Virus record (IMG/VR): IMGVR_UViG_3300010885_045053
Location: 1 to 20,844 of that record
Length of the DNA stretch: 20,844 nucleotides
Origin: a virus
Direction: 5' to 3' (one strand)
Numbering within the stretch: position 1 is the first letter of the stretch; each line of letters opens with the position of its first letter. Shown piece by piece: positions 5,593 through 20,844 of the stretch. The notes under the pieces were generated by a model. The model saw only the letters and a list, made by a program, of their open reading frames with translations. It was not told the DNA's origin and did no database searches. The position numbers were made by a program, and so were the translations under genes.

Positions 5593-6831
5593 ATGTCAAA
5601 AATTAAATCATACGAGCAATTCGTAAATGAGAACTTATTCGGTCAATATTCATATTACGGAGCAGGTTCTTTATTTCCTATTGTTCAAAAACTAGCATCT
5701 GAAGGAAAAAATCCAGAACAGATATACCTTTTCTTGACTACAATTGGAGTTGATGAAGAGAGAAAAATAAATGTACTTAAAAAAGTATTTTTAAACGAAT
5801 CAATAGATGTTGATTCATTAACCGAAGCTTCTAGAAGCAAATTTAAAGGAAAAACCGCACATGATTTATACACTCAATTGAATGGAAAATCAGCAGAGGT
5901 TTTCATTAAAAACGAATGGTATAGTGTTGATCCGAAAGAATTAAAGGCAGAGAAAGGAACTTCTTTCACTGGATATACTCATGATGGTTCTGATTATGAA
6001 TTTGATGTTAGTGACATTGATTTTATACAAGAATCAGTAAATGAAGGTAATGCTTTTGCTGATAAACATGCAAAGGTTATTGTTAACGATGAATGGGTAG
6101 ATCCAGAAGATTTTAAAACTTCATGGGATATTACAAAATTCCGAGAATACGTTGATAATAAATTAGACCAATATAATAGTGAAGAACTTAAAAATAACGT
6201 AAAGTTCGATAATAGTAAAGGAGATGTTTTGATAGCAATCGAGAAATTATTACAGGCTAAATTTGGTTCTAAATTTCCATTCTTAAATGAAGGTGGTCTT
6301 TATGAAGAAGATGACATCCTTAAAGCTGATACAAAAGATTTAGCAAAAGGAATTTCTCCAGATAAAGCTAAAGCTGACGATGAAGTAAAAAACGCAATCG
6401 ACAAATTAAAAAATGACGATAAAGAAAAGAAAGATGCTGAAGAAAAACCAGAAGGTGAAGGTTCAGATGATACTGCAAAAATCGATGCTTTAAAAGATGC
6501 TTTAAAAGATGCACAGAAAATGGAAAAAATCAAAAAGATTCTTTCTGAATCAATGGGTTTTGATATGACTGGTCTTGAAGATGAAGTATTAGAATCAGTA
6601 TTAGAATATCATACAGTTCTTGAAAAATTATCCCAAGCAGAGAAAGATAAATTAAAACCAACTGATTTTGTATTTCCTGATAGAAAATCATGGCCAATAC
6701 ATGATGAGAAACATGCAAAAACTGCATTAGTTTGGGCTACATGGCCACAATATGCTGACTTGAAAAAACAAGTAGTTGCATCAGTAATAAAAAGATACCC
6801 TAACCTTAAAGGAGTAGGAGCTGCTAAATAA
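5593..6831 (+). CDS. Putative capsid-internal protein with shared N-terminal targeting motif, 412 aa
   Basis: The product starts MSKIKSYEQFVNE, one of seven N-termini in this window with the pattern M(K)xLxS(F/Y)xxFxxE, which resembles the T4 capsid-targeting sequence; a gp21-type cut would fall after VNE. Further LxE/IxE-like sites occur near residues 76-78 (LTE). Residues ~25-70 are helical. Residues ~100-180 contain two related segments, AEVFIKNEWYSVDPKEL at 101-117 and AKVIVNDEWVDPEDF at 160-174, probably a duplicated small fold. A Lys/Asp/Glu-rich low-complexity stretch covers ~245-310, with a twice-repeated ALKDALKDA. The C-terminus (~350-412) is a basic, helical, tryptophan-containing region. 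No enzyme motif was recognised. A late box lies just upstream, and the next gene starts 1 base after the stop. Confidence 0.8.
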   Translation: MSKIKSYEQFVNENLFGQYSYYGAGSLFPIVQKLASEGKNPEQIYLFLTTIGVDEERKINVLKKVFLNESIDVDSLTEASRSKFKGKTAHDLYTQLNGKSAEVFIKNEWYSVDPKELKAEKGTSFTGYTHDGSDYEFDVSDIDFIQESVNEGNAFADKHAKVIVNDEWVDPEDFKTSWDITKFREYVDNKLDQYNSEELKNNVKFDNSKGDVLIAIEKLLQAKFGSKFPFLNEGGLYEEDDILKADTKDLAKGISPDKAKADDEVKNAIDKLKNDDKEKKDAEEKPEGEGSDDTAKIDALKDALKDAQKMEKIKKILSESMGFDMTGLEDEVLESVLEYHTVLEKLSQAEKDKLKPTDFVFPDRKSWPIHDEKHAKTALVWATWPQYADLKKQVVASVIKRYPNLKGVGAAK

Positions 6832-6832
6832 T

Positions 6833-7510
6833 ATGAAAAATTTACAAACATACGAAGATTTCATTTTAGAGTCTTTAGTTCTTGAAGCTACTCAAAAAGA
6901 TGTACAAAGAATTCAAGATATTGTTACTAAATCTAAGGGTGATGAGGCTAAAATGTTAATGTTAGCTAACACAATGTGTAAGTTAATTACCGACAAAAAC
7001 AAAGCATTCGATAGAGGTGTTGCAGCTGACCAAATTTTAGGCAAAGACCATGCAGTAACAAAAGTATTTTTTGATAGAGCTGCCGGATTAGGAATGGATG
7101 TTGATAAATCAATGAATTCTGTACATGTTTTACCTGGTTCAAAAAGACCTTCTTCTGAACAATTCAAAACTACTAGACAATTTACTAGTGGTTATAGAGG
7201 CGGTGGTTGTGCTATTTTACCTTGTGGTAGTTTAAATCTTACTACTGGTGAAAACAAGTACTTTAATGTAAAAACTAACGGCGCTTCAACTATTGAGGTT
7301 TGGAAAACTAACGGAGATGAAAAATACCGAGCAGTAATTACCTCAGGTTCTACTCCATTATGGCAAATAGGAACTCAAGGACATTTCAGTCACGATCAAA
7401 CAGGTAAAGGATTATTTACTGGTACGATGGTCGATTATATCGAATCTGCACACATGGAAGAATTAATACCACTTTATGGTAAATCTATTACATGTGCTGT
7501 GTATAAATAA
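6833..7510 (+). CDS. Putative capsid-internal protein with shared N-terminal targeting motif, 225 aa
   Basis: The product starts MKNLQTYEDFILE followed by SLVLEA, the shared motif with a possible processing site after ILE and a second after VLE. The rest (to residue ~100) is helical, including KVFFDRAAGLGMDVDKS. The region from ~120 is Gly/Thr-rich and looks mostly beta (GGGCAILPCGSLNL, VWKTNGDEKYRAVITSGS). Two close cysteines (GGCAILPCG) and a further one near the end could bind metal or form a disulphide, but no family was recognised. The first 17 bases of the gene are identical to those of the gene at 16067, although the bodies are unrelated. The ATG lies 2 bases after the upstream stop. 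Confidence 0.78.
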   Translation: MKNLQTYEDFILESLVLEATQKDVQRIQDIVTKSKGDEAKMLMLANTMCKLITDKNKAFDRGVAADQILGKDHAVTKVFFDRAAGLGMDVDKSMNSVHVLPGSKRPSSEQFKTTRQFTSGYRGGGCAILPCGSLNLTTGENKYFNVKTNGASTIEVWKTNGDEKYRAVITSGSTPLWQIGTQGHFSHDQTGKGLFTGTMVDYIESAHMEELIPLYGKSITCAVYK

Positions 7511-7538: not shown

Positions 7539-9203
7539 ATGTCAAAATTAAAAACTACCTTTGATTCTGCATCTCTTAAATCTAAATTTTCTGAATTACT
7601 TGAGAGCATAGACAGAAACAATACATCGAAATTGATTGTTGAAAGACACTACGGTAACATAGCTTCATTAGAAATTGCTGAAGGATCTGTTTCTGCTAAA
7701 GATGCTTATGCTGAATTAATCGGTAAAGGTGTTGAACAAAACAGAGCTAGACATATTGCTACCGCTTCAACTTTATCTGAAGCTAAAACTCAAATCGCAG
7801 ATTCTTACCTTTTAGGTAGAATAGCTATCCTTGAGTCAGCAATGAAAGAATTAAATTCTTATTCTTGGATGCCACAAATCAAAACTTTCATCACAGAAGG
7901 TCAAGCATTCATCAAAGCTAATCAAACTTATATTCTTATTGAATCTGTAATTAGAGACTTAGAATTAGATAGAAACAAAGCTTATTATACAAAAGCAATC
8001 AATTCTCTTAGAGAAGCTTCTAATGCTGAAAATCCTACATTTGCTGTAGTTGAAGGTTTAGAAACTGAAGTTTGGATTCCTATTGTTAAAAGACTTTATG
8101 AATATTGTTCATCTCAAAAAGGTGAAGTTAATGGACAAAATCCTAATTTTAAAGTTCAGAAAATATATTCACCAATCGAAGTTATTGATGAAAATACTTT
8201 TGCTTTTTACTCTTCAGGTAAATTCCTAGAAATTAAAGGAAATACAATATCTGAATCTGCTTTTGCTGGTAACAATGATTTTAATTCATTAGTTAAAATT
8301 ACAGAATCTGCTAAATTTGGTGATAATCAAATGAGAATGTACCCTAATCCTAATTCAGTATTAGATATTACATTTGGTGAAACTCCTAAAGTTACTCTTA
8401 ACGGACAAGTTGTTGAATCTACTTCACTTGCTACTCAATTAGTTACTTCTGGATTTGTTAGATTTAACGAACAAGATAAACTAGCTCTTATACAAAGAGC
8501 AGTTAGTGAAGGAGCTAAAGTTAAAGAATTAGATTTCGGTTACAAAGTAACTTCTTCAGTTTTTGAAGGTCTTTCAGTTTCTATATTCAATGTTGAAGAT
8601 AGAGTATTTGTACAAAAGATAAACAAAGGAATGAAAGAAAATTCTATCGTTGAAGCTTCTTCAGCTAATGAAGCAGTAGAAATGGTGAAAGATTTCATGA
8701 ACTATGACATAACTGAATCATTATCTCATTTAGTAGAAAATGAAAAGGCTGAAATTTCTAGAAAAAATGCTGAACTTGGAAAGGTTGAAAGTAGAATCAA
8801 ATTTATCATCGAGAAACTTGCTGATATAGATGCTGCAGAAAGAACTTTAGGTAAATCAGAATTTATCGATCAAGCAAAATCATTACTAGAATCTCAAATC
8901 AAAGAACAAAACGTAATTCTTGCTAAATTAAAAGGTGAAGTAGTTGAAGGTGTTGAAACTCCTTTCTTACCAAAAGCTGGAGAAACTGCAGTTGCAGGAA
9001 CAATGCCTTTACAATCAGTTGCTGATTTAATTCCAGGTAAAGAATTTACAGTTAAAAATGTTGCAGGTTACATATATCAAGGAGAAGCTGACGGATCATT
9101 TATGTTCAACCATAAAGATCTTGAAACTAATGCTCAACCTTTGCATATGACTGAGATAGAGGTGCTTGCCGCGATTAAAAACGGCGAAATCACTTGCTGC
9201 TAA
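7539..9203 (+). CDS. Large late protein of unknown function sharing a C-terminal domain with the 10783 gene
   Basis: 554 residues, function not recognised. Residues ~1-165 are helical (SKFSELLESI, SYLLGRIAILESAMKEL), ~165-400 are mixed with many strands, and ~400-470 form a probable coiled coil (ENEKAEISRKNAELGKVESR). Residues ~491-551 form a small domain, LQSVADLIPGKEF ... YIYQGEADGSFMFN ... TEIEVLAAIKNGEI. It matches residues ~41-105 of the product at 10783 (LKSVAELLPGKEY ... MIYQGVTNGVHIFN). The N-terminus MSKLKTTFDSASLKSKFSELLES is only loosely like the shared targeting motif. Codon use matches its neighbours. The position between internal-protein genes suggests a head or core component, which is inference. 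It may be a prohead core or another virion protein. Confidence 0.75.
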   Translation: MSKLKTTFDSASLKSKFSELLESIDRNNTSKLIVERHYGNIASLEIAEGSVSAKDAYAELIGKGVEQNRARHIATASTLSEAKTQIADSYLLGRIAILESAMKELNSYSWMPQIKTFITEGQAFIKANQTYILIESVIRDLELDRNKAYYTKAINSLREASNAENPTFAVVEGLETEVWIPIVKRLYEYCSSQKGEVNGQNPNFKVQKIYSPIEVIDENTFAFYSSGKFLEIKGNTISESAFAGNNDFNSLVKITESAKFGDNQMRMYPNPNSVLDITFGETPKVTLNGQVVESTSLATQLVTSGFVRFNEQDKLALIQRAVSEGAKVKELDFGYKVTSSVFEGLSVSIFNVEDRVFVQKINKGMKENSIVEASSANEAVEMVKDFMNYDITESLSHLVENEKAEISRKNAELGKVESRIKFIIEKLADIDAAERTLGKSEFIDQAKSLLESQIKEQNVILAKLKGEVVEGVETPFLPKAGETAVAGTMPLQSVADLIPGKEFTVKNVAGYIYQGEADGSFMFNHKDLETNAQPLHMTEIEVLAAIKNGEITCC

Positions 9204-9217
9204 AACAAATTTCAATA

Positions 9218-9439
9218 ATGAAACTATCCACATTCGATGAATGGTTAAATGAATCGAAATCAGAAGAATTTGTAAATGCTACACTAACATCTCCTTTTAA
9301 AACATCTAAAAAAGGAGATGTAGTTAAAGTAAATGCTTTACAATACACTAAAAGTGCAGATTCTGATAAAATAGAAATCATTTTGCCTAATGGAAAACCT
9401 GAACTAATTGATAAAAAGTTTTTAGTAGTTAAATTCTAA
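9218..9439 (+). CDS. Small putative capsid-internal protein with targeting motif, 73 aa
   Basis: The ATG at 9218 is chosen over an in-frame TTG at 9194. The TTG lies inside the previous gene, whereas 9218 follows an A-rich leader and gives MKLSTFDEWLNE, the shared N-terminal motif with a Trp in place of the usual Phe. A cut after LNE would leave a ~61-residue basic, probably beta-rich mini-protein (GDVVKVNAL, KIEIILPNG, KKFLVVKF) that resembles a small SH3-like barrel in strand pattern only. No function was recognised. It lies 14 bases after the 554-residue protein gene and 12 before the gp55-like gene. Confidence 0.7.
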   Translation: MKLSTFDEWLNESKSEEFVNATLTSPFKTSKKGDVVKVNALQYTKSADSDKIEIILPNGKPELIDKKFLVVKF

Positions 9440-9451
9440 AACCTCAAATCA

Positions 9452-9811
9452 ATGTCAATTTACGTAAAACCAAAAGAACTCTACGAGGAAATATGCATTT
9501 CCTTAAAACAAGAAAAATTAACCAAGAAGGCGGAAGAAATGCTTATCTTAATTGCCTATCGAGCTAATACAAGATTAACGTATGAAGATCCGATGGACAG
9601 AGAAGATTGCATAGCTTTTGCCCTTTTGGATTTGTTTAAATATTGGAAATCATTTAAACCAGAAAAAACAAAAAACGCATTCTCCTATTTTACTCAAATA
9701 GCAAAAAATGGATATGCAAAAGGATGGAATAAATTACATCCAGGAAAATACAAAGGAACTATTTCTCTAAGTGGAGGTAATGGTGATTCCGAAGGTATTT
9801 ATTCCGTTTAA
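9452..9811 (+). CDS. 55: Late-promoter sigma factor, gp55-like (short form)
   Basis: 119 residues. Residues ~7-100 fit the T4-type gp55 pattern: KELYEEICISLKQEKLTKKAEEMLILIAYR, then MDREDCIAFALLDLFKYWKSF, then KTKNAFSYFTQIAKNGYAKGWNK. In T4 the last part reads [21 protein letters not shown]. This is the sigma region 2-like module that binds the beta' coiled coil and reads the late -10 box. The protein is much shorter than T4 gp55 (185 residues), and its Gly/Ser-rich end shows no clear copy of the T4 clamp-binding tail (SLDFLYE). In T4 the gene lies near 46/47 in the middle region; here it sits among late head genes. Its likely targets are the RATATATAnnWAAA boxes in this window. Confidence 0.7.
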   Translation: MSIYVKPKELYEEICISLKQEKLTKKAEEMLILIAYRANTRLTYEDPMDREDCIAFALLDLFKYWKSFKPEKTKNAFSYFTQIAKNGYAKGWNKLHPGKYKGTISLSGGNGDSEGIYSV

Positions 9812-9824
9812 AATAATAGTTGCG

Positions 9825-10355
9825 ATGAATCGTCTTTTAAAATTTGCTGATTTTGTTAATGAATCAGTTAGCTTAGCTAAATTAAATCGAGTATATGCTA
9901 TGACACCAGAATGGTGGTCAGCTTGGAAGCTTGAAAATATTGAAAAGTACAATTTTGAACAGGATGCTTTCTCTAAAACCTTTAACGTATACGATCAAAA
10001 TAAGAAATTAATTTTTGTTTTTGATTATTCTAGAAGTAAAATATTTACTAACGAAAAACCTTCTACTTTTATTCTTAAAGACGAATTAACTCAAGATGAA
10101 ATGAATAAAGTTAAGGATAAAGCAGAACAAATACAAAATCCAGAAGCTTTAGATGCTCAAAAAGACTTAAAAAAGGAATTGGAACAAAATCCACCTGAGA
10201 AAAAAGAAGGCGAAAAGGAAGTTGAAGAAGCTGAAATGGTTGGCACCGGAACAATAAATCCTGTATCTGCTGCAGATCAAAATCTAAAAGTTAAAGGTTA
10301 TCGTAACAATCAAGATTCTGCATCAGGTGGAAGTTACCCAACATACATTGGATAA
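9825..10355 (+). CDS. Putative capsid-internal protein with targeting motif, 176 aa
   Basis: An in-frame GTG at 9771 would extend this gene into the gp55-like gene. The ATG at 9825 is preferred because it gives MNRLLKFADFVNE, the shared N-terminal motif, and lies 13 bases after the upstream stop. Residues ~20-75 hold a compact region (RVYAMTPEWWSAWKLENIEKY, FNVYDQNKKLIFVFDY), probably mixed alpha/beta with a WW pair. Residues ~85-145 are a highly charged Lys/Glu/Pro stretch, and the last 30 are Gly/Ser/Asn-rich. No enzyme family was recognised. Confidence 0.75.
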   Translation: MNRLLKFADFVNESVSLAKLNRVYAMTPEWWSAWKLENIEKYNFEQDAFSKTFNVYDQNKKLIFVFDYSRSKIFTNEKPSTFILKDELTQDEMNKVKDKAEQIQNPEALDAQKDLKKELEQNPPEKKEGEKEVEEAEMVGTGTINPVSAADQNLKVKGYRNNQDSASGGSYPTYIG

Positions 10356-10374: not shown

Positions 10375-10752
10375 ATGAAAAATTTACTTTCCTTTGACGA
10401 ATTTGTCAATGAACAATTAAATGAAAGTACGGTTAATGGAGATACATTTATAGAAGGATTAGCTAATATTATAGCAAATGAATTAGGTGTTACTGTTACT
10501 GGTACTGCTCATTCTTCAGGTAATGAAAAAAGCATAGACGGTATTCAATTGTATAATGTTTCTAGTGATTATAATATGTCAATTGATTACGATTTACTTT
10601 CTAAGAAATCTAAAAAATCACAAGATGAATTAGTTAAAATAATTGATAAAGCAATAAAAGGAGCTAAGAAAACCGTTGGCGATGCAAAAGTTAAACGTTG
10701 GAGTCCTAAACCTACTAGCACCGTATTTTCGGTATCTGCAAAATCTAGATAA
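10375..10752 (+). CDS. Putative capsid-internal protein with targeting motif, 125 aa
   Basis: The product starts MKNLLSFDEFVNE then QLNES; a cut after VNE or LNE would fit gp21-type specificity. The remainder is a small alpha/beta protein (TFIEGLANIIANELGVTVTG, SIDGIQLYNVSSDYNMSIDYDLL, KKSQDELVKIIDKAIKGAKK) with a basic Ser/Pro/Lys-rich tail. The mature form would be basic, as is common for proteins packaged with DNA. It has an A-rich leader and lies 19 bases after the previous gene. Function not recognised. Confidence 0.78.
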   Translation: MKNLLSFDEFVNEQLNESTVNGDTFIEGLANIIANELGVTVTGTAHSSGNEKSIDGIQLYNVSSDYNMSIDYDLLSKKSKKSQDELVKIIDKAIKGAKKTVGDAKVKRWSPKPTSTVFSVSAKSR

Positions 10753-10782: not shown

Positions 10783-11139
10783 ATGAAAAAATTATTATCA
10801 TTTGACGAGTTCGTAAACGAACATTACAAGATTCAAGAAGCTACTGATGCTGATGGATTTAACCCTCAAAATACTACTGGAGAAGATCCAACTGGACCAG
10901 CTTTAAAATCTGTTGCTGAATTACTTCCAGGTAAAGAATACGTTTTTACTGTAGATGGAGCTGTTAATACCGATATGATATATCAAGGTGTTACTAATGG
11001 AGTTCACATCTTTAATGGCGAAGATAAAGCTAATGACATTCAATTTACCGATGTAGAAATTGCTGATGTTATCGCTAAAGGAGGTTTTATGCAAGTTTTA
11101 GAAGGTAATGCTACTGAAGCTGCTACTACTGAAGAGTAA
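10783..11139 (+). CDS. Putative capsid-internal protein: targeting motif plus domain shared with the 7539 gene, 118 aa
   Basis: The product starts MKKLLSFDEFVNE, almost the same as the product at 10375. A ~27-residue acidic linker follows, then a domain at ~41-105 (LKSVAELLPGKEY, MIYQGVTNGVHIFN, TDVEIADVIAKGGF) that matches the C-terminal domain of the 554-residue protein encoded at 7539-9203. The tail is Ala/Thr/Glu-rich. The gene looks like a modular join of targeting motif and a borrowed domain. Function not recognised. A co-packaged partner or competitor of the larger protein is one inference. Confidence 0.78.
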   Translation: MKKLLSFDEFVNEHYKIQEATDADGFNPQNTTGEDPTGPALKSVAELLPGKEYVFTVDGAVNTDMIYQGVTNGVHIFNGEDKANDIQFTDVEIADVIAKGGFMQVLEGNATEAATTEE

Positions 11140-12411: not shown

Positions 12412-14025
12412 ATGCCAGGATTTGTAAATAGAGACGAAACTTCAAACGGTAAACCAACACCGGCTTCAAGGAATATAGTCAGCAAAGCACTTAAATCATT
12501 ATCATCATTTGGAATGATGTATGACGATATGGTGCTGAAAAACTCTAAAGCTATCGGTATCAACGAAGACCAATATGGTTGGAGACTTGATCCGAGAAAT
12601 GTTGCTGGTGGTGAATACGATGATTATGCTCTTTTTGCTAATTTATCGATGACGGATATTAATCTTCGTAAATCTATTTCCATTTTCGATAAATCATATC
12701 CTAAAAAGAGAGAAGACCTTAGAAAATTCGCTATTCAAGATGAGATCGAAGATATTCTTGATACTCTTTGTGATGAATGTGTAGTTTATGATGATAAAAA
12801 TTACTTTTGTATGCCATTATCTTTTGATGATGATACATTAGAACCTACAACGTTAGAAGCAGTTAAAATTGCTTTAGATACTAATTTTAAAAGAATCTAT
12901 CAATACTTTGGATTCAATAATGATATTGCCGCTTGGTCTTATTTTAGAAAATGGTTAGTTGATGGTTATCTTGCATTTGAGATAATCTACGACAAAGAAC
13001 AATCAAGAATCATTGGATTTAAAGAATTAGACCCAATCAATCTTGAACCAGGAATCGATAAAGAAGGTAAGAAAATTTGGAAACAATTTAAAGGTATGCC
13101 TAACAAAGAAAGAATAGTATATGACTCACAAGTTATTTACATCTCTTATGCTAACGTTAATACCGTAAATAGAGTTTCTTATGTTGAAAGACTTATTCGA
13201 TCTTTTAACTTACTTAGAATTATGGAACACTCAAGAGTTATTTGGGCTACCGTTAATGCTTCGTTTAAAACTAAATTTGTAATTCCAGTTGGTGGTAAAT
13301 CAAAAACTAGAGCAAAACAATCTCTTGGAGTTTTAATGCAAAACTATAGAGAGCAAATAGATTTTGACACTGAATCCGGTGAATTAAAAGTTAATGGTAA
13401 AGCAATGATGCCATTTAACAAAGAATATTGGTTGCCATCTGGTGATGCTGGTGAACCTACAATTGAGACTATTGGAAACGATGGTCCAGATCTTTCAGAT
13501 ACTGATGCTCTTAAATACTTCAGAGAGAAATTAATTAAAGTATCTAAAATTCCACTTTCTCGTTTTGATATGGAATCCCCACCTTCATGGGAAATGAATG
13601 CTGAGGGTATGACTAGGGATGAGATTAAATTTGGACGATTCGTTACTCGTTTACGTTCAGTTTTTCAAGAAATACTTACAAAACCTCTTTGGATTCAAAT
13701 GTGTTTAGACTTTCCGGAAATTAAGGAAGATGATGCATTTAAAGCTCAAATTGGTGTAAAATATAACACAATGAACATCTTTGAAGAGATGAAAGAAATT
13801 GAAATCTTACAGAAAAGATTAGATTTTGTAACTTCAATGAAAGATGGTCTTGTTGATACTGATGCAAACATGAATGAAGTAAAATACTTTGCTTCTGAAT
13901 TCTTAATACAAAGATTCTTAGGTTTATCTAATGACGATTTACGTCTTAACAAGAAACTAAAAGATATCGAAGATGTAGAAAGAAGAGAAGCTGCCAAAAA
14001 AGATGCAGAAGCAACAGGAATGTAA
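12412..14025 (+). CDS. 20: Portal vertex protein gp20
   Basis: 537 residues (T4 gp20 is ~524). It forms the dodecameric ring through which DNA is packaged and to which the neck binds. T4-type portal signatures are present: NDIAAWSYFRKWLVDGYLAFEIIYD and ELDPINLEPG in the first half. In the core, KEYWLPSGDAGEPTIETI, DLSDTDALKYFREKLIKVSKIPLSR and TRDEIKFGRFVTRLRSVF match T4-type EYWLP ... D.D....F..KL....K.P.SR ... .DE.KF..F...LR. The C-terminus is a charged helix. A late box and A-rich leader precede it. The portal-protease-scaffold-capsid order is the same as in T4 (20-21-22-23). Confidence 0.95.
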   Translation: MPGFVNRDETSNGKPTPASRNIVSKALKSLSSFGMMYDDMVLKNSKAIGINEDQYGWRLDPRNVAGGEYDDYALFANLSMTDINLRKSISIFDKSYPKKREDLRKFAIQDEIEDILDTLCDECVVYDDKNYFCMPLSFDDDTLEPTTLEAVKIALDTNFKRIYQYFGFNNDIAAWSYFRKWLVDGYLAFEIIYDKEQSRIIGFKELDPINLEPGIDKEGKKIWKQFKGMPNKERIVYDSQVIYISYANVNTVNRVSYVERLIRSFNLLRIMEHSRVIWATVNASFKTKFVIPVGGKSKTRAKQSLGVLMQNYREQIDFDTESGELKVNGKAMMPFNKEYWLPSGDAGEPTIETIGNDGPDLSDTDALKYFREKLIKVSKIPLSRFDMESPPSWEMNAEGMTRDEIKFGRFVTRLRSVFQEILTKPLWIQMCLDFPEIKEDDAFKAQIGVKYNTMNIFEEMKEIEILQKRLDFVTSMKDGLVDTDANMNEVKYFASEFLIQRFLGLSNDDLRLNKKLKDIEDVERREAAKKDAEATGM

Positions 14026-14054
14026 TCAAATTTCAATTGTTTCCAAACATCATT

Positions 14055-14068
14055 GATATATAACTAAA
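14055..14068 (+). promoter_or_regulatory. Late-promoter-like box GATATATAACTAAA
   Basis: A copy of the RATATATAnnWAAA motif lies 27 bases before the ATG of the protease-scaffold gene, in the 56-base gap after the portal gene. Confidence 0.65.
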
Positions 14069-14081
14069 AATAGAAGCCATA

Positions 14082-15995
14082 ATGAGCAATAATAAATATC
14101 TACTTGTATTAGAAAGATCGGAAGGAAATCTTACATCTTCTAAGGATGGAGATAAATATGTGTTAGAAGGTGTTTTCACCGAAATAGGCATTAGAAACAA
14201 GAATAATCGTATTTATGATGAAGCTGAGTTAATGCCACACATACAAGACTTACAAGAAAAACTTAAAGGTAACAAATTACTTGGAGAACTTGACCACCCT
14301 AAATCTTTTGATATATCGTTAAAGAATGCTTCACATATTATCGAAGATCTTCAATACGATAAAGCTAGCAAAACCGTTACTGGTAGAATCAGATTACTTA
14401 ATACTGATGCTGGAAAACAAGCAATGGCATTAGTAGATGCTGGTGTACCTCTTCATATTTCATCTAGAGCTGCCGGTGTTGTTGAATCAAATGGCCATGT
14501 TAAAATTAAAAAAATGTTTACTTATGATTTAGTTGCAGATCCAGGATTTGCCAATGCTGAATTAAAAAGAGTAAACGAATCTTTTGGATTAGACAACGAT
14601 TCATTGACTCAAATCTATGAAATCGATTCAGATTTAAGCGAATCTGATTTACAAGTTTTAACCTATCAACAAGAAGAAACACCCCAAACCACAATAAACG
14701 AAACAAAAAACGACAAAATGGATCCTAAAAAATACATTACCGTTGAAGATTTTAACGAATATACTAAACATGTTAAAAACGAAGTAGAAAATCTTAAAAA
14801 GTCTTTAACCGAATCATCAGCTAAAGATTCTTCATCTGTTAATGAAGGATTGATACGTTACACTGAAGAAACTGCAAAAAGAGTTAATCAAATTAATTCT
14901 TATGTTGAAAAATTAGCAGAATCAGTTGATGGTTTAATTTCTCATAATGATTATATCATTGAAAACCTTGAAAGAGTTAAAAACTATGCTGAATTAGTAG
15001 GTGAAAAATCTAATCAAGGAATTAACTATTCCGAAAAACTTTCTGAATCAGTTGACCACTTAATTGAGTACACTAAATTAGTTGCTGAAATGAGCGATAG
15101 AGGTATTGAATATACTAAAGTAGTTGCAGAAAAAGCAGATCAAAATATTGAGTTCTCTAAATATATTGCTAATGAATCTAATTCACGTTGGGCTTATCAA
15201 CAACATATGAACGAGCAATTAGATAATGTAATTTCACATAATGATTATATCGTTGAAGGTACTTCATCTATCATCGAATATACTGAGTACTTAAAAGAAA
15301 ATACACAAAATCTTGCAGGTTACCTTAACCACATCGTTAAAGAAATTAATGAAGGTAAAGTTACAGGTTTAGAAAATGCTGAAGCAATTGACGAAAACCT
15401 TATATTACATTCAACTCCTACTAGAACTATTTTAGCTAAGGTTGAAGGTAATGAAGAAGATGCATTCCAAAAGACTTTAACTGATAAATTAAATTCTATC
15501 TTAGAAAGTGCAAAAACTGTTAATGAATCAGTAGATGCTAACAAATTACACTTCTTAAATTTCCTATCAGAAAATAAAAGAAATCAATTTGAATCATTAA
15601 CTCCTGAGAAAAAAGACGAAGTTATAGCTACTTTTGAAAATAATAAATTTTACGGATCAGTTGATGCTGAAAGATTATATGAATCAGTATTTATTGCATT
15701 TAGACCAGTTACAAATTGGTTGACTAATATGCCAGCTAAATACAAAGATTCTTGGAATGGATTAAACGAATCTCAAAGAAATGCAATTAAAGCTCAAGCT
15801 ACAATGAAAGTTTTAGATAACCAATATAAAATCGATGATTTCTGGTCTACTAGAGATTTAAGATCAGTAAAAGTTGATGCTCCATTAAATGAAGGTGCAG
15901 CGCCAGCAATTGTTAATGAAACTGCTGAATACAAAACTCCAGCTAATTATATGGACACTGTACAAGCTGAGTTAAGAAGAAGATTTAACAGATAA
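14082..15995 (+). CDS. 21: Prohead protease gp21 fused in frame to a long coiled-coil scaffold
   Basis: 637 residues. Residues ~1-170 are a gp21-type prohead protease (herpesvirus assemblin-like serine protease fold). They include LEGVFTEIGIRNKNNRIY, the catalytic His in GELDHP (H72), and the Ser in HISSRAAG (S127/S128), then LVADPGF near 155. It cleaves after (L/I)xE during head maturation. Residues ~170-212 are an acidic linker ending near TTINE. From M213 the protein is a probable scaffold (T4 gp22 role). It has a helical start, then eleven 14-residue repeats at ~272-425, then a C-terminal region (~500-637) with RPVTNWLTNMPAKYKDSW and ending RRRFNR. Many internal LSE/LAE/INE sites would allow self-processing. 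T4 encodes these functions in separate genes of 212 and ~269 codons; here they are joined, with an ATG at codon 213. Confidence 0.85.
   Translation: MSNNKYLLVLERSEGNLTSSKDGDKYVLEGVFTEIGIRNKNNRIYDEAELMPHIQDLQEKLKGNKLLGELDHPKSFDISLKNASHIIEDLQYDKASKTVTGRIRLLNTDAGKQAMALVDAGVPLHISSRAAGVVESNGHVKIKKMFTYDLVADPGFANAELKRVNESFGLDNDSLTQIYEIDSDLSESDLQVLTYQQEETPQTTINETKNDKMDPKKYITVEDFNEYTKHVKNEVENLKKSLTESSAKDSSSVNEGLIRYTEETAKRVNQINSYVEKLAESVDGLISHNDYIIENLERVKNYAELVGEKSNQGINYSEKLSESVDHLIEYTKLVAEMSDRGIEYTKVVAEKADQNIEFSKYIANESNSRWAYQQHMNEQLDNVISHNDYIVEGTSSIIEYTEYLKENTQNLAGYLNHIVKEINEGKVTGLENAEAIDENLILHSTPTRTILAKVEGNEEDAFQKTLTDKLNSILESAKTVNESVDANKLHFLNFLSENKRNQFESLTPEKKDEVIATFENNKFYGSVDAERLYESVFIAFRPVTNWLTNMPAKYKDSWNGLNESQRNAIKAQATMKVLDNQYKIDDFWSTRDLRSVKVDAPLNEGAAPAIVNETAEYKTPANYMDTVQAELRRRFNR
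14718..15995 (+). CDS. Possible nested in-frame scaffold product starting at internal ATG
   Basis: The ATG at 14718 is in frame with the protease gene (codon 213) and is preceded by a run of A-rich bases (14693-14717) that looks like the leaders in front of this phage's ordinary start codons and unlike surrounding coding sequence. The product would be 425 residues: MDPKKYITVEDFNEYTKHV, then coiled-coil repeats and the C-terminal region. Phage lambda makes its scaffold from an internal start in the protease gene, and the same layout is inferred here. It could instead simply be a linker codon. Confidence 0.45.
   Translation: MDPKKYITVEDFNEYTKHVKNEVENLKKSLTESSAKDSSSVNEGLIRYTEETAKRVNQINSYVEKLAESVDGLISHNDYIIENLERVKNYAELVGEKSNQGINYSEKLSESVDHLIEYTKLVAEMSDRGIEYTKVVAEKADQNIEFSKYIANESNSRWAYQQHMNEQLDNVISHNDYIVEGTSSIIEYTEYLKENTQNLAGYLNHIVKEINEGKVTGLENAEAIDENLILHSTPTRTILAKVEGNEEDAFQKTLTDKLNSILESAKTVNESVDANKLHFLNFLSENKRNQFESLTPEKKDEVIATFENNKFYGSVDAERLYESVFIAFRPVTNWLTNMPAKYKDSWNGLNESQRNAIKAQATMKVLDNQYKIDDFWSTRDLRSVKVDAPLNEGAAPAIVNETAEYKTPANYMDTVQAELRRRFNR
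14895..15356 (+). repeat. Eleven 14-residue (42-bp) coding repeats in the scaffold
   Basis: The encoded units align without gaps in 14-residue steps, for example INYSEKLSESVDHL, IEYTKLVAEMSDRG, IEYTKVVAEKADQN and IEFSKYIANESNSR. The pattern is a hydrophobic residue, any residue, Tyr/His/Phe, a variable stretch, Leu/Ile/Val, any residue, then often Glu. ISHNDYI occurs at the start of two units. Fourteen residues equal two heptads, so this is a coiled coil built by tandem expansion. Confidence 0.8.
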
Positions 15996-16016
15996 TAAAT
16001 AATCACAAAATTCACT

Positions 16017-16042
16017 AAACTCATCTGAAAGGGTGAGTTTTT
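16017..16042 (+). terminator. Hairpin terminator after the protease-scaffold gene
   Basis: AAACTCATC (16017-16025) pairs with GGTGAGTTT (16032-16040) around a 6-base loop, with one G-T wobble, followed by TT. The T-run is short (about five including the stem end), so termination may be partial, letting transcripts reach the next gene. Confidence 0.7.
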
Positions 16043-16066
16043 GTGCTAAGTAAAAAAATAACATAA

Positions 16067-16480
16067 ATGAAAAATTTACAAACTTTTGCTGAATTTATTA
16101 ATGAATCAATTCTTAATGAAGCTAAAGCCTATAAGCTTAAATACGATTATCAATACGGTAACGAAACACTCAGAACTCATTCAAGAACATTAGACGGTAA
16201 TGCTGGAACCGAAGTAGAAAAGCTTTTTAATAAAGAATGGGGTACAATATATGATATTTGTTTTATGAGATCTAATTGGGACCCTAAAATGACCAAAGAT
16301 CGTGAATGGGCTATTTCTAATTTCGAACCTGGAAAAACCATCAATCTTAGTAACGGAATACAAATAATATTTCATAAAGATCCTTCAATTAAAATCGCTA
16401 AAACTCCTAATTGGACGTTCACTGGTTATAATGGAAAAATATTAGAACCTGAAGAATTCTATTTATACTTAAACGAATAA
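16067..16480 (+). CDS. Putative capsid-internal protein with targeting motif, between scaffold and capsid genes, 137 aa
   Basis: The product starts MKNLQTFAEFINE then SILNEA; FINE and ILNE are both (L/I)xE-type sites. A mature part after residue 13 or 18 would be a basic, beta-rich ~120-residue protein (KLKYDYQYGNETLRTHSRTL, WGTIYDICFMRSNWDPKM, GIQIIFHKDPSIKIAKTPNW). No family was recognised. It lies between the protease-scaffold and gp23, the strongest positional support for a head role. A terminator lies just upstream and no late box is seen for it, so it may depend on read-through. The DNA of its first 17 bases equals that of the gene at 6833. Confidence 0.78.
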   Translation: MKNLQTFAEFINESILNEAKAYKLKYDYQYGNETLRTHSRTLDGNAGTEVEKLFNKEWGTIYDICFMRSNWDPKMTKDREWAISNFEPGKTINLSNGIQIIFHKDPSIKIAKTPNWTFTGYNGKILEPEEFYLYLNE

Positions 16481-16483
16481 AAA

Positions 16484-16501
16484 ATCTAAGGCGACTTAGA
16501 T
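16484..16501 (+). promoter_or_regulatory. Perfect 7-bp inverted repeat with GCGA loop at the gp23 promoter
   Basis: ATCTAAG (16484-16490), loop GCGA, CTTAGAT (16495-16501). Its right arm overlaps the first three bases of the late box at 16499. There is no T-run, so it is not a standard terminator. It could be an operator, a transcript-end hairpin with a GNRA loop, or chance. Confidence 0.5.
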
Positions 16502-16512
16502 ATATACTAAAA
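16499..16512 (+). promoter_or_regulatory. Late-promoter-like box GATATATACTAAAA of the capsid gene
   Basis: The box is identical over 14 bases to the one at 4329. It lies 85 bases before the gp23 ATG, giving an unusually long, A-rich 5' leader (16513-16583) compared with the other late genes. Confidence 0.7.
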
Positions 16513-16583
16513 CGCTAATTATTGCTAAAACACAAAAAGCATCAGCGTAAAATCAAAACACAAAACAAAATAAAACATTTTAA

Positions 16584-18206
16584 ATGTATTTAATTAACGA
16601 ACAAGAAATATTCGGTAAATGGGCTCCAATCATTGAGTCTACTACAGGAATTCAAGAACGTGCTAGAGTAGAGTGGATGTCTAAATACTGTCATTACCAT
16701 GAATTGTATGAAAACAATAACTTAGCTCAATTAGGCGCTGTAAACGGTATGGGTTCAACTCGTTTCCCAGGTGACCCAGGTACTCAATCAGGTTTCCCAG
16801 GACAAGAAACTGGTTCAGGCGATAAAGCTCACACACTTCTTCCATTAGCAATGCAAGTTGCTGCTCAAACTATCGGTCTTGACTTGGTACCAGTTGTACC
16901 AATGCCTGGTCCAATGGGTGTATTAACATATTTAGACTTTGTATATGCAGGTGGTCAAACATCTTCTACTGACAATGCTCCATTGTTAATCAAAATAAAC
17001 TACGGTTCTACTGCAGTTCCTGCATTCGTAGTTGGTGGAACTTCTGCTCAAACTAACGGTGTTACTCTTGCTTATGTTGGAGCTTCACGTTTAGATGGTT
17101 ATCCAATCTTCCACGTTAGAGGTATTCTTTCTAATGCTACAATCCTTGCAACATTCGCTACTGTATTAGGTGCTTCTGGTATCTCAGGTGTAACTGGTTC
17201 ATCTGCTGGATTAAACGTAGAATTAGTAAAAGCTTTAGAAGACCACATCACTGGATTCTCAGGTGCTGCTTTAAAAGGAAACGATTACGGTACAACTTCA
17301 TCTAACGATCCTTACTCTAGAGCTACAGGTGAGTCTACAATGGACAACGTAATGAACTTAAGTCTTTTCAACAAATCAGTTGAAGCTAAAACTTTCCAAG
17401 TTGCAGCTGCTGTTACTAGAGAGCAAGTTCAAGATTTGAAACAATTCGGAGTTGATGCTGTATCTCAAGTAGAATCAGTACTTATCAACGAATTGACTCA
17501 ATCAATCAACAAAAACATTCTTTCTAGATTGTTTAATCTTGGTGAAATTAACCACAAAAATGTTGTTAATTCTCAAGGAATCAACTTCTTCTTGAATATC
17601 GGTGCTACTGCTACTACAGTTACTAATACTAACTCTAATATACAAACTGCATTTGGTAACTATATCCAAGATGCTACTCTTAAACTTGTAACCATTGCTG
17701 CTTCAGAAGTTGCTAACTCTGCTTCAGAAAACCTTTCTACTCGTCAGAGAAAAATTATGTCTAAGATCCTTGCAATCGCTAACCTTATTGCAATTAGAGG
17801 TCGTAGAGGACCAGCTACTTTCATCGTTACAAACGGTCAAGTATGTTCTGCTCTTCAAGATATAGCTGGTTTCGTTCCTGCTCCTATGGCTAATACAATT
17901 AACCAAATGAGTGGTTCACTTTACCCAATTGGAACAGTTGCAGGTCTTGCTATCTACAACGATCCTAACATGGCTTGGAACGATACTCGTTTCTTAGTTG
18001 GACGTAAAGGTGATGGTAACTCTCCAGGTTTAGTATTCATGCCTTACTTAATGGCTGAATCAGTACAAACAATTGCTGAAGGAACTATGGCTCCTAAAGT
18101 TGCTGTTAAATCAAGATACGCTTTAGTTGAAGCAGGTTTCCACCCAGAAACTATGTATATCACTTCAGGTGTATTCTTACAAGCTACCCTTGGTTCTTTA
18201 GTATAA
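16584..18206 (+). CDS. 23: Major capsid protein gp23
   Basis: 540 residues (T4 gp23 521), HK97 fold, assembled as hexamers on the scaffold. The N-terminus contains the T4-like KWAPIIE. Later conserved segments are seen: LDLVPVVPMPGPMGVLTYLDFVYAGG, given here in the order found near residues 93-118, KSVEAKTFQVAAAVTREQVQDLKQFG, LSTRQRKIMSKILAIANLIA, RRGPATFIVTNGQVCSALQ and GLVFMPYLMAESVQTIAEGTMAPKVAVKSRYAL. In T4 the first 65 residues are removed by gp21; here the exact site is not obvious. The codon mix (more GGT, CGT, AAC, TTC) differs slightly from neighbours, as expected for the most highly expressed gene. A strong terminator follows. Confidence 0.97.
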   Translation: MYLINEQEIFGKWAPIIESTTGIQERARVEWMSKYCHYHELYENNNLAQLGAVNGMGSTRFPGDPGTQSGFPGQETGSGDKAHTLLPLAMQVAAQTIGLDLVPVVPMPGPMGVLTYLDFVYAGGQTSSTDNAPLLIKINYGSTAVPAFVVGGTSAQTNGVTLAYVGASRLDGYPIFHVRGILSNATILATFATVLGASGISGVTGSSAGLNVELVKALEDHITGFSGAALKGNDYGTTSSNDPYSRATGESTMDNVMNLSLFNKSVEAKTFQVAAAVTREQVQDLKQFGVDAVSQVESVLINELTQSINKNILSRLFNLGEINHKNVVNSQGINFFLNIGATATTVTNTNSNIQTAFGNYIQDATLKLVTIAASEVANSASENLSTRQRKIMSKILAIANLIAIRGRRGPATFIVTNGQVCSALQDIAGFVPAPMANTINQMSGSLYPIGTVAGLAIYNDPNMAWNDTRFLVGRKGDGNSPGLVFMPYLMAESVQTIAEGTMAPKVAVKSRYALVEAGFHPETMYITSGVFLQATLGSLV

Positions 18207-18313: not shown

Positions 18314-18859
18314 ATGACTTTTATCCTACCTACAAATGTTCTCGGAATCCAAAACGAGATGAAGCATTATAAACAATTATGTTTACAATACGATTATACA
18401 CCTGCACAAAAAGAATACGAGGAAATTGTTAGATTTCTATTATTATTTTCTGGAGATGGAATTAGTGAATCTATAATAAATGAAAATTCATCATCATTAG
18501 ATTATCTTTATGAATCTTTTATTGAAGATTTGAATGAAGCTCACGTTGAAACTGATGGTGCCGAGATGTTTGATAAAGTTGCAGGAGAAACAATTAAAGG
18601 AGTTCAAAAGGCCGGTAAAGTTGCCGCAGTAGGTGCAGCAGCAGTAGGAGCTGGAGCAGTTTTAGCTGGTGCAAGTATTGGTGCTTGGATTTCTTACATG
18701 TTTAAAAAGGGTAAAGTCAAAAAGGCGGCTAATAAAGAATATGATGCCGCAGTTACACAACTTAACGACTACGCAAAAATATATCAACTTAAATCAAAAA
18801 AGGCAGAATTAGAAGGAAAAGAAGCTCCTAAAGGTGATTTTCCAGGATATCCTGCATAA
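18314..18859 (+). CDS. Late protein with Gly/Ala-rich membrane-like segment, 181 aa
   Basis: Residues ~1-80 are helical and acidic (EYEEIVRFLLLFSGDGISESI, SLDYLYESFIEDLNEA). Residues ~100-132 are a Gly/Ala-rich hydrophobic stretch (KVAAVGAAAVGAGAVLAGAS followed by IGAWISYMF) with small residues spaced as in glycine-zipper helices, followed at once by a basic run (KKGKVKKAANKEY). The tail is a charged helix. FIE and LNE are possible prohead-protease sites, and a cut after LNE would leave a basic membrane-active mature protein. No family was recognised. Options are a virion protein that enters the envelope at infection, or a holin-like protein, which is less likely here. The next gene starts 11 bases later. 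Confidence 0.75.
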   Translation: MTFILPTNVLGIQNEMKHYKQLCLQYDYTPAQKEYEEIVRFLLLFSGDGISESIINENSSSLDYLYESFIEDLNEAHVETDGAEMFDKVAGETIKGVQKAGKVAAVGAAAVGAGAVLAGASIGAWISYMFKKGKVKKAANKEYDAAVTQLNDYAKIYQLKSKKAELEGKEAPKGDFPGYPA

Positions 18860-18870
18860 CATTATTATAT

Positions 18871-20844
18871 ATGAACCCACTTGAAAAAATAATCCTTGAA
18901 TCTTACGAGGATGCTAATTATTTTGATATCCTCGATCAATTAGTTGAATTTGTTTTAGAATCTCATGACATCTATATCGATGAAGATTGTACAATCGAAG
19001 AGTTGTTAGAATCATTAAATGAAATCGATCTTTCTCAAAATCCTTTATATCTTTCTTTGACTGAAAGACAAACCCCGGCAAGAAAGAGGGCTGCAAGAAA
19101 AAGAGTACCATCACAAAAAAAATCTTCTGGTCCAGCTAAAGACAAAGGACCTAAGAAAGCAAAGGTCGAACCTAAGAAGGAAAAACCTGAATCGGCGAAG
19201 CCTGAAAGTCCTGAAGCTAAGAAAACTGAGTCACCAGAACCAAAGAAAGAAAAGGGTGGTAATGAATCTGAAAAAATTGAACAGCTTAAAAGCCAATCAT
19301 CTAAATTATCAGATCAAATAAACGATGTTAAAAAACAAGAGGAAACCGTTGATGGTAAAAAAGATCCTAAGAAAGCTACTGAACTAGAATTAAAGAAAAC
19401 GGAATTACAAGCACAAAAAGATGAAATCATATCTAAAAGTAAATCTTTAGAAGGAGATGATGAAGGTGCTAAGAAATATAAAAAAATAGCTGATTTGCGT
19501 AAAGATAACACTAAACAATTAGGTGTTATTGTTAAGCTGAAAGAATCAGTTAATGAAGCCGAAGATGACGAATCAACTAAAGAATTAATTACTGCTAAAT
19601 TACAAATAGCAAAAAATAATTTTGAGATAGCTAAAACTTCTGCACCTGATGGTAAACTTGACGCAACAGTTCAAAAAGGACACGAAGATGAAATCGCTAG
19701 ATTAGAAGCTAAGTTGAATGAAGAACCTAAAGTCGATCAAGCGGCTATTGATGCAGCACAAACAAAAGTTAATGCTGCAACAGATAAAGTTAAAACTGCA
19801 AATGATGCTAAGTCTGCTTTAACGGCCGAAGCTACTCCAGAAGAAAAGGCTGCTGCTGAAAAGGCAGTAACCGATGCTCAAACCGAATTAGATACTGCTA
19901 ATACTGAATTAACTAAGGCTAAAGGAGAAGATGTAAAAACTCCTAAAGTAGATCCACCTAAAGTAGATCCACCTAAAGTCGATCAAGCGGCTATTGATGC
20001 AGCACAAACAAAAGTTAATGCTGCAAAAGATAAAGTTAAAACTGCAAATGATGCTAAGGCTGGTCTAAAAGACGAAGCTACTCCTGAAGAAAAGGCTGCT
20101 GCTGAAAAGGCAGTAACCGATGCAAACACTGAATTAGATACTGCTAATACTGAATTAACTAAGGCTAAAGGAGAAGATGTAAAAACTCCTCCGGCTGAAG
20201 ATTCGGAAGAATCTAAAAAATGGAAAGACGATAAAGAAAAGTTATCTAAGGCTACTACTGAGGCTAAGGCTAAGGCTGATGAAACTCAAAAGGCTGTCGA
20301 TGCTGCAAAAGAAGCTAAAACTAAATTAGCTCCTGATGCATCAGATGAAGATAAAGCTGCTGCTGATGCAGCAATCACTGCTGCTGAAACCGCTCATAAA
20401 CCTAATCAAGATGCATTAGATGCTGCAACTGCGACAGAAGCTGAGCATGATAAAAATAAACCTAAAGATTCTACTACTCCACCTGCTGAAAAGAAAGTCG
20501 ATCCAGAAAAGAAAGAAGGTGAAGCAGAAGATGAAGCGGAAGATGAAGGTGACGCTGAATTAAAAGCAAAAAATAAAGATGAAATCGAGAAATTAAATGC
20601 TCAAATTGAATCTCTAGAAACAGCTTACGATTCTAAAAAAGAACCAACTGATGAACTCATTAATGCAGCAAAAGAAAAAACAGATACATTAGCTTCTAGT
20701 GATATGTTAAAAACTTTAGTATCTAAAACTCGTCTAGAAAATAAGTTAAAATATCAAAACAAATTATTATCAATTATTGGTGATGAAGAATCTAAGAAAG
20801 CTTTATCTAAAACAGTTAAAAAAGAAGAAGCTGCTTTAACGAAA
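18871..20844 (+). CDS. Very long Lys/Ala/Glu-rich repeat protein, N-terminal 658 codons (3' end outside window)
   Basis: The frame is open from the ATG at 18871 to the last base. Residues 1-66 are acidic and helical (MNPLEKIILESYEDANYF, IEELLESLNEIDLS, ending YLSLTE), with several LxE sites. Residues ~67-135 are strongly basic and Pro/Ala/Lys-rich (RQTPARKRAARKRVPSQKKS and on), like a histone H1 tail or packaged DNA-binding peptide. From ~135 the protein is low-complexity coiled coil, with two near-identical 73-residue repeats and shorter PKVDP repeats. The end of the visible part (~570-658) is a more regular charged coil. It may be a head-core or internal protein processed by the protease, or a fibrous virion protein. 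The family was not recognised and its full length is unknown. Confidence 0.8.
   Translation, partial: MNPLEKIILESYEDANYFDILDQLVEFVLESHDIYIDEDCTIEELLESLNEIDLSQNPLYLSLTERQTPARKRAARKRVPSQKKSSGPAKDKGPKKAKVEPKKEKPESAKPESPEAKKTESPEPKKEKGGNESEKIEQLKSQSSKLSDQINDVKKQEETVDGKKDPKKATELELKKTELQAQKDEIISKSKSLEGDDEGAKKYKKIADLRKDNTKQLGVIVKLKESVNEAEDDESTKELITAKLQIAKNNFEIAKTSAPDGKLDATVQKGHEDEIARLEAKLNEEPKVDQAAIDAAQTKVNAATDKVKTANDAKSALTAEATPEEKAAAEKAVTDAQTELDTANTELTKAKGEDVKTPKVDPPKVDPPKVDQAAIDAAQTKVNAAKDKVKTANDAKAGLKDEATPEEKAAAEKAVTDANTELDTANTELTKAKGEDVKTPPAEDSEESKKWKDDKEKLSKATTEAKAKADETQKAVDAAKEAKTKLAPDASDEDKAAADAAITAAETAHKPNQDALDAATATEAEHDKNKPKDSTTPPAEKKVDPEKKEGEAEDEAEDEGDAELKAKNKDEIEKLNAQIESLETAYDSKKEPTDELINAAKEKTDTLASSDMLKTLVSKTRLENKLKYQNKLLSIIGDEESKKALSKTVKKEEAALTK
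19726..20190 (+). repeat. Two 219-bp tandem coding repeats separated by a short PKVDP spacer
   Basis: Unit 1 is 19726-19944 and unit 2 is 19972-20190; both begin CCTAAAGTCGATCAAGCGG and end AAAACTCCT. I count about 12 base differences between them, clustered in two places. The 27-base spacer 19945-19971 carries extra copies of a 15-bp AAAGTAGATCCACCT unit. The encoded unit (DQAAIDAAQTKVNAA and on) is an Ala/Lys/Glu coil. The high nucleotide identity points to a recent duplication. Confidence 0.9.

Follow-up and report, generated by a model that had tools for sequence, protein, structure and literature searches.

The window analysed here is the whole of a 20,844-base virus record and encodes, in order, a portal protein, a head maturation protease and a major head protein (12412-18206). 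Directly 3′ of the major capsid protein (MCP) gene and a second ORF, A, lies ORF B, with the T4-type portal, protease and MCP just upstream. The prohead protease matches phrog_207 (E 2.6e-39), a gp21-type protease in the same phage as ORF B. ORF B spans 658 codons on the + strand (18871..>20844) with no stop before the window ends. Based on a relative that shares its C-terminal part (L003), the full protein is approximately 817 amino acids, for which "giant", the word used in the initial annotation, was an overstatement. The features are listed below, with slashes marking cut positions.

12412..14025, + strand: portal protein (phrog_213)
14082..15995, + strand: prohead protease and acidic scaffold-like coil in one fusion, with 27 [LIVY]xE sites past residue 225
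16584..18206, + strand: MCP (phrog_138)
18314..18859, + strand: ORF A, partner of ORF B, with an [LIV]xE-rich N-terminal part, a Gly/Ala-rich hydrophobic stretch and a basic helix
18871..20844, + strand: ORF B, predicted precursor of a prohead-core or internal head protein, with no stop before the window ends and with homologues in related contigs, likewise located behind the MCP
18871..19065, + strand: acidic helical domain, residues 1-65, the predicted propeptide, with eight [LIVY]xE sites, the last being LTE/R
19063..19068, + strand: predicted protease cut E65/R66 (E65 in 11 of 11 aligned sequences, L63 in at least 90%)
19066..19245, + strand: Lys/Pro/Ala-rich basic tail (residues 66-125, net +13), with disorder predicted from residue 79
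19066..19545, + strand: basic module (tail and first coil), residues 66-225, net +16, with the first [LIVY]xE only at its end
19543..19557, + strand: possible second cut region LKE/SVNE/A, after residues 225 and 229 (suggestive)
19725..20190, + strand: 246-bp tandem repeat, 1.9 copies, within the acidic coil
20486..20844, + strand: start of the conserved C-terminal body common to L003, where DNA identity is back at 80%

Residues 1-65 of ORF B contain 18 D/E and 1 K/R (net -17) and end in LTE. The initial annotation described this acidic start correctly apart from its length, given as 66 residues; the new N-terminus that it placed at Arg67 is numbered one too high, and the predicted cut after E65 gives Arg66. 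The very basic Pro/Ala/Lys stretch that it reported after LTE is present: the next 30 residues have net charge +11, and the next 60 have net +13 with 63% K/R/P/A. The most basic 40-residue window of the protein begins at residue 66 (net +14), a value reached anywhere in 12 of 2000 residue shuffles. The basic tail had been thought to lead into a long coil, and the chain beyond it turns acidic (residues 126-658, net -25). Nor is the whole protein a repeat, as repetition is confined to the 1.9 copies at 19725-20190 and some short runs.

AlphaFold2 predicts helices at residues 3-31, 42-50 and 58-65 of the pro-domain (block pLDDT 84-91 up to residue 60), and pLDDT is below 50 for residues 79-105 of the tail. 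ORF B has no family match in PHROGs or Pfam and no tblastn match among 50,697 phage records. A fold search of the PDB with the pro-domain model gave nothing useful (best E 5.4), and the best match of the pro-domain profile to PDB sequences (E 0.072) was taken as chance. No paper found in a search of open-licence PMC describes ORF B.

The closest named phage by DNA is LR756500.1 (462 kb), with 72% identity over 2% of the window and 57% identity at the MCP, where Lak phages come next at approximately 37%. LR756500.1 has neither A nor B right behind its MCP, and nothing like B was seen in the region listed for PAU, PTm1 and MA9V-2.

Seven window ORFs have a start similar to the T4 CTS (MKxLxSFxEFxNE/) at or near their first residues (5593-6831, 6833-7510, 9194-9439, 9771-10355, 10375-10752, 10783-11139 and 16067-16480), and the phage may thus load many proteins into its head. 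The start of ORF B does not carry this short signal. Another window ORF (7539-9203) is rich in [LI]xE (18 versus 8.8 expected) and may, judging by this count, be another degraded core protein. It belongs to the largest family of the ORF set (39 representatives, O/E 1.90), a set that includes some spurious reverse-strand ORFs.

Protease sites in ORF B and in T4

The T4 protease gp21 cuts after L/I-X-E (PMC9026906, in part). We learned the motif from these phages themselves, using the scaffold coils behind the protease domain in 13 related protease fusions compared with shuffles. At P3 before x-E, the 13 coils have O/E values of 2.74 for L, 2.49 for I, 2.06 for V and 2.12 for Y.

In ORF B, the pro-domain is rich in such sites and the rest of the protein is depleted. 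Across homologues, the pro-domain has 66 [LI]xE versus 35.6 expected (O/E 1.85, 8.15 per 100 amino acids), and the mature part has 38 versus 105.7 expected (O/E 0.36; none of 500 shuffles is as low), a count that leaves out the last 45 residues of complete proteins. Pooled z-scores overstate the significance of these values, as the B homologues are related to each other. The depletion is specific to Glu at P1 ([LIV]xE 0.40, xD 1.24, xQ 1.02 and xK 1.21) and persists when only polar residues are shuffled (O/E 0.34). The residues that B avoids are those in excess in the scaffold (Pearson -0.85, 17 residues compared), although the rank correlation is not significant (Spearman -0.41, p 0.10). Enrichment over the last 45 residues of B (1.38) is not significant.

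Of the [LIVY]xE sites in the window ORF B alone, eight lie within residues 1-65 and three (225, 229 and 284) within the remaining 593 residues. Its two [LI]xE compare with 6.9 expected, and 36 of 2000 shuffles are as low. All 11 long forms of B (defined below) fall below expectation, nine of them with at most 5% of shuffles as low. The short forms are weakly depleted (n=6; O/E 0.70 when both ends are removed and 0.82 when the first 25 residues are), and one of them, L010, shows no depletion (15 sites versus 9.6 expected). Six distant single-ORF homologues at the same place have the same pattern, with O/E 2.02 in the first 60 residues, 0.20 in the body and 1.45 in the last 40. Two distant B-like proteins (L059 11715-13334 and L081 4514-6043) carry a CTS-like motif, LKSFKDFVxEK, at the C-terminus.

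Known T4 proteins served as controls. The degraded scaffold gp22 has 16 sites versus 5.8 expected (O/E 2.74), and IPI, IPII and IPIII have one site each, the clip site (residues 19, 10 and 10, respectively), with none in the mature part. T4 gp67 is not enriched (3 versus 2.5 expected) yet is degraded in T4 (PMC9958956, in part), so the composition test can miss such proteins. An Asp at position 10 of T4 IPIII blocks processing and keeps targeting (PMC9026906, in part), a result that fits the Glu-specific avoidance in B.

By the same measure, we consider it very unlikely that B is a gp22-like scaffold, shredded and lost during maturation. Like gp22, it is a long acidic chain whose gene adjoins that of the MCP, and gp22 is itself an acidic core protein encoded near the MCP gene. 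However, gp22 is rich in cut sites and degraded, and the B body is depleted (0.36, versus 2.74 in gp22 and 2.61 in the coil fused to the protease). The [LI]xE density is 0.60 per 100 amino acids in the B mature body and 4.26 in the protease-fused coil, which better fills the scaffold role in the window phage.

Of the 21 families in which 15 or more [LIV]xE are expected, three alone fall below 0.9: portal (0.54), B (0.76, a figure that counts the pro-domain too) and a distant B-like family (0.78). The protease-scaffold family is at 2.27. The portal value rests on 9 sites versus 16.7 expected in 2 representatives only (e.g., L059 5666-7360). Because the portal is low in sites too, depletion indicates that a protein is exposed to the protease and does not by itself identify an internal protein. 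We find it highly improbable that B belongs to the tail or fibres, acts as a tape measure, or is of low complexity with no head role, given that depletion is found in just these three families and that the gene is syntenic with head genes. Tape measures can hold long coiled repeats, and ORF A matches the tape-measure family phrog_4211, but weakly (E 0.0046), and this was judged a poor basis for calling A a tape measure.

The site-rich pro-domain and depleted body, as in T4, point to a prohead-core protein that would lose its N-terminal propeptide and keep its body in the head. We therefore retain two proposals of the initial annotation: cleavage after LTE by a T4-type prohead protease (the site is conserved, the protease is present, the pro-domain is site-rich and the remainder is depleted) and a location in the head (the body is depleted and the gene lies directly behind the MCP and ORF A). 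It is quite likely from these patterns that B, in this T4-like jumbo phage, is an internal head protein that is cut by the prohead protease and resides in the head.

Relatives and exchange of the N-terminal module

A search with the MCP recovered 80 loci in viral contigs, and in many the order A, B, C, D is kept behind the MCP (C is approximately 165 amino acids; D is a RimK-like ATP-grasp protein of approximately 500). The RimK-like ORFs (PF08443, E 1.9e-34 in L005) lie downstream of B at 14096-15592 in L003, at 14875-16371 in L005 and in other relatives. They start with a CTS-like MKNRLAYFxEFVxNEA and may encode a head-packaged enzyme.

B was read from 18 of the 80 loci, giving 19 sequences with the window. 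Excluded were near-copies (such as L004, L011, L015, L026, L031, L034, L037, L042 and L052), loci whose sequence runs out too soon after the MCP, L038, and distant loci (L035 onwards), except for the six used for single-ORF homologue counts. L021 and L041 have no ORF of the B kind. Eleven sequences are long forms with the acidic start (window, L005, L006, L008, L013, L014, L018, L020, L022, L024 and L025), six are short forms without it (L003, L010, L016, L019, L027 and L029), and in two loci A and B are one ORF (L030 and L033). Contig ends cut B in L006, L014, L022 and the window, and residue numbers of L003 and L020 are low by one.

Ten loci thus encode a start homologous to that of the window ORF B. 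In an alignment of the first approximately 105 residues (n=11, mean column identity 42%), invariance is limited to M1 and E65, and L63 (at least 90%) and N57 come close to it. The 60 residues after the cut have net charge +13 to +17 in 10 of the 11 long forms and +5 in L020; in the short forms, the 60-residue stretch that follows the last N-terminal site ranges from -5 to +7. A profile of the pro-domain, searched over 8 long contigs, found one copy each in four, which are those with a long B. The pro-domain is therefore not a general signal on other proteins there.

The nearest relative by MCP (L003, 91% identical) has a short-form N-terminus with no basic tail. Its DNA matches the window at 83% over 18314-18875, up to the start of B, is unmatched until 20486 and then matches at 80%. 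It follows that approximately 1.6 kb, coding for the N-terminal module of B, has been exchanged in a pair of phages whose MCPs are 91% identical. Mapped on the MCP tree, for which the bootstrap had not settled, the long form requires 5 changes, compared with 3 for the short form.

Basic module and possible second cut

The initial annotation predicted a DNA-condensing core protein. The tail is indeed basic and predicted to be disordered, but in 9 of 10 long forms the mature chain carries a net negative charge (the exception, the incomplete L014, is +7), six relatives lack both the acidic domain and the tail, and no histone-type family matches were found. With PF07432 (histone Hc1), the whole B of the window and L005 gave no match at E up to 0.1, and the basic modules of the window, L005, L014, L024 and L025 gave none at E up to 1. 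A Pfam search with the basic module found nothing near the cut-off. Bulk condensation of DNA by B, as first stated, is unlikely; the observations agree better with a long acidic coil whose tail touches DNA. Small Hc1-like (PF07432) genes occur separately from B in 3 of 8 related contigs (L096, L097 and L098). An H1-like Hc1 (PF07432) protein is reported in "moraphages", related Bacteroidota jumbo phages (PMC12619734, in part), which shares the idea of H1-like DNA binding with B, although B itself has no PF07432 match.

Nine sequences have net charge +11 to +25 over the 111-189 residues from the predicted cut to an [LIV]xE near residue 225, and net -18 to -99 in the remainder. This second site was picked by eye in each sequence, with L013 left out. 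As many aligned sites within 8 columns are shared in 55 of 2000 random placements, and 29 of 2000 are as near to the charge turn. A second cut near 225/229 that marks the charge border is suggestive from these sequences. T4 Alt is cut at both ends (PMC9026906, in part), so a cut near the C-terminus of B is possible.

At low salt, the basic internal proteins (IPs) of T4 bind DNA (PMC9026906, in part), and inside the T4 head the DNA phosphates are contacted by internal-protein lysines (PMC3012670), which makes a DNA-touching tail plausible. By this analogy, the chances that the B tail lies on packaged DNA are about even. The tail could instead serve assembly, binding the acidic scaffold coil (or RNA) and remaining a passenger after maturation. 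We regard this as possible but doubtful: all 13 fusions have scaffold coils with net charges of -17 to -33 and T4 IPs co-purify with gp22 (PMC9026906, in part), but the tail lies behind the cut on a protected mature body and would outlive the scaffold, and the T4 binding and lysine contacts just cited involve DNA.

A further idea, which we hold to be quite unlikely, is that the acidic propeptide (-12 to -23) masks the charge of the basic module. It would block nucleic-acid binding in the cytoplasm until the prohead protease destroys the mask, possibly freeing the module at the second site, to give a chromatin-like protein active only inside the head. Domain and tail would then be one swappable cassette.

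ORF A, known systems and the role of ORF B

ORF A (n=17) is split near an LNE/A motif, with [LIV]xE O/E of 1.81 in the N-terminal part and 0.36 after it. Its C-terminal part has a Gly/Ala-rich hydrophobic stretch followed by a basic helix. In L014 (6898-8106), ORF A is extended by repeats like those in B of the window and L014, as if the repeat had spread from B to its neighbor.

The shared site signature, the hydrophobic stretch of A and the joining of A and B in one ORF in L030 and L033 would also suit a pair that leaves the head with the DNA, with A acting at the host membrane and B coating or escorting the DNA. T4 IPs and Alt are ejected (PMC9026906, in part). The AlphaFold2 model of A is too poor for use (mean pLDDT 56.5). 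On balance we find an ejected pair unlikely, and ejection of B into the host is only guessed. The propeptide, the site, the protected body and the linkage to A are supported by sequence statistics.

Our preferred reading is that of an internal head protein. The acidic helical 65-residue domain would dock B into the prohead core, and the activated protease would cleave it at multiple LxE-type sites, of which the one at E65 is the last, and the peptides would leave. The body would survive in the head owing to its very few sites. Mature B would start with a flexible basic tail, most likely against packaged DNA, followed by coils, and probably works with ORF A, which has the same pattern of propeptide and protected body.

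On its predicted processing, B is a variant of the T4 internal-head-protein kind. T4 IPI, IPII, IPIII and Alt lose an N-terminal propeptide after [LI]xE to a gp21-type protease (predicted for B) and have bodies free or nearly free of further sites, basic character near the cut and diverse bodies behind the targeting part. In contrast, the signals in T4 have 10-19 residues (Alt has 7; PMC9026906, in part) and B has a 65-residue helical acidic domain. The T4 IPs are small and net basic when mature (+2, +5 and +10), whereas B is approximately 817 amino acids and net acidic, with no sequence match to them.

The abundant internal proteins gp53 and gp54 of SPN3US and phiKZ have long N-terminal propeptides with several cut sites (PMC10052503 and PMC5694885, both in part). 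B would share such a multi-site propeptide (eight [LIVY]xE in 65 residues, all cuts predicted), but the SPN3US protease cuts after AXE and most propeptides are 111-254 residues (same sources, in part). No relation of B to gp53/gp54 was found by PHROG and phage tblastn searches. Adenovirus precursor pVII is likewise a core DNA-binding precursor trimmed by a viral protease (PMC3829898, in part), a role only predicted for B; virus, protease and sequence are unrelated, and the likeness is an analogy.

The protease-site pattern provides a sequence-only test for proteins that enter the prohead and for the parts that survive there. In T4 it separates the scaffold gp22 from IPI-III, though gp67 is missed. 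Applied here, it singles out A and B as processed head proteins, in phages of which no cultured representative turned up in our searches. Little is known of how heads are filled and organised in uncultured jumbo phages, and naming A and B makes their role in arranging the DNA a testable question.
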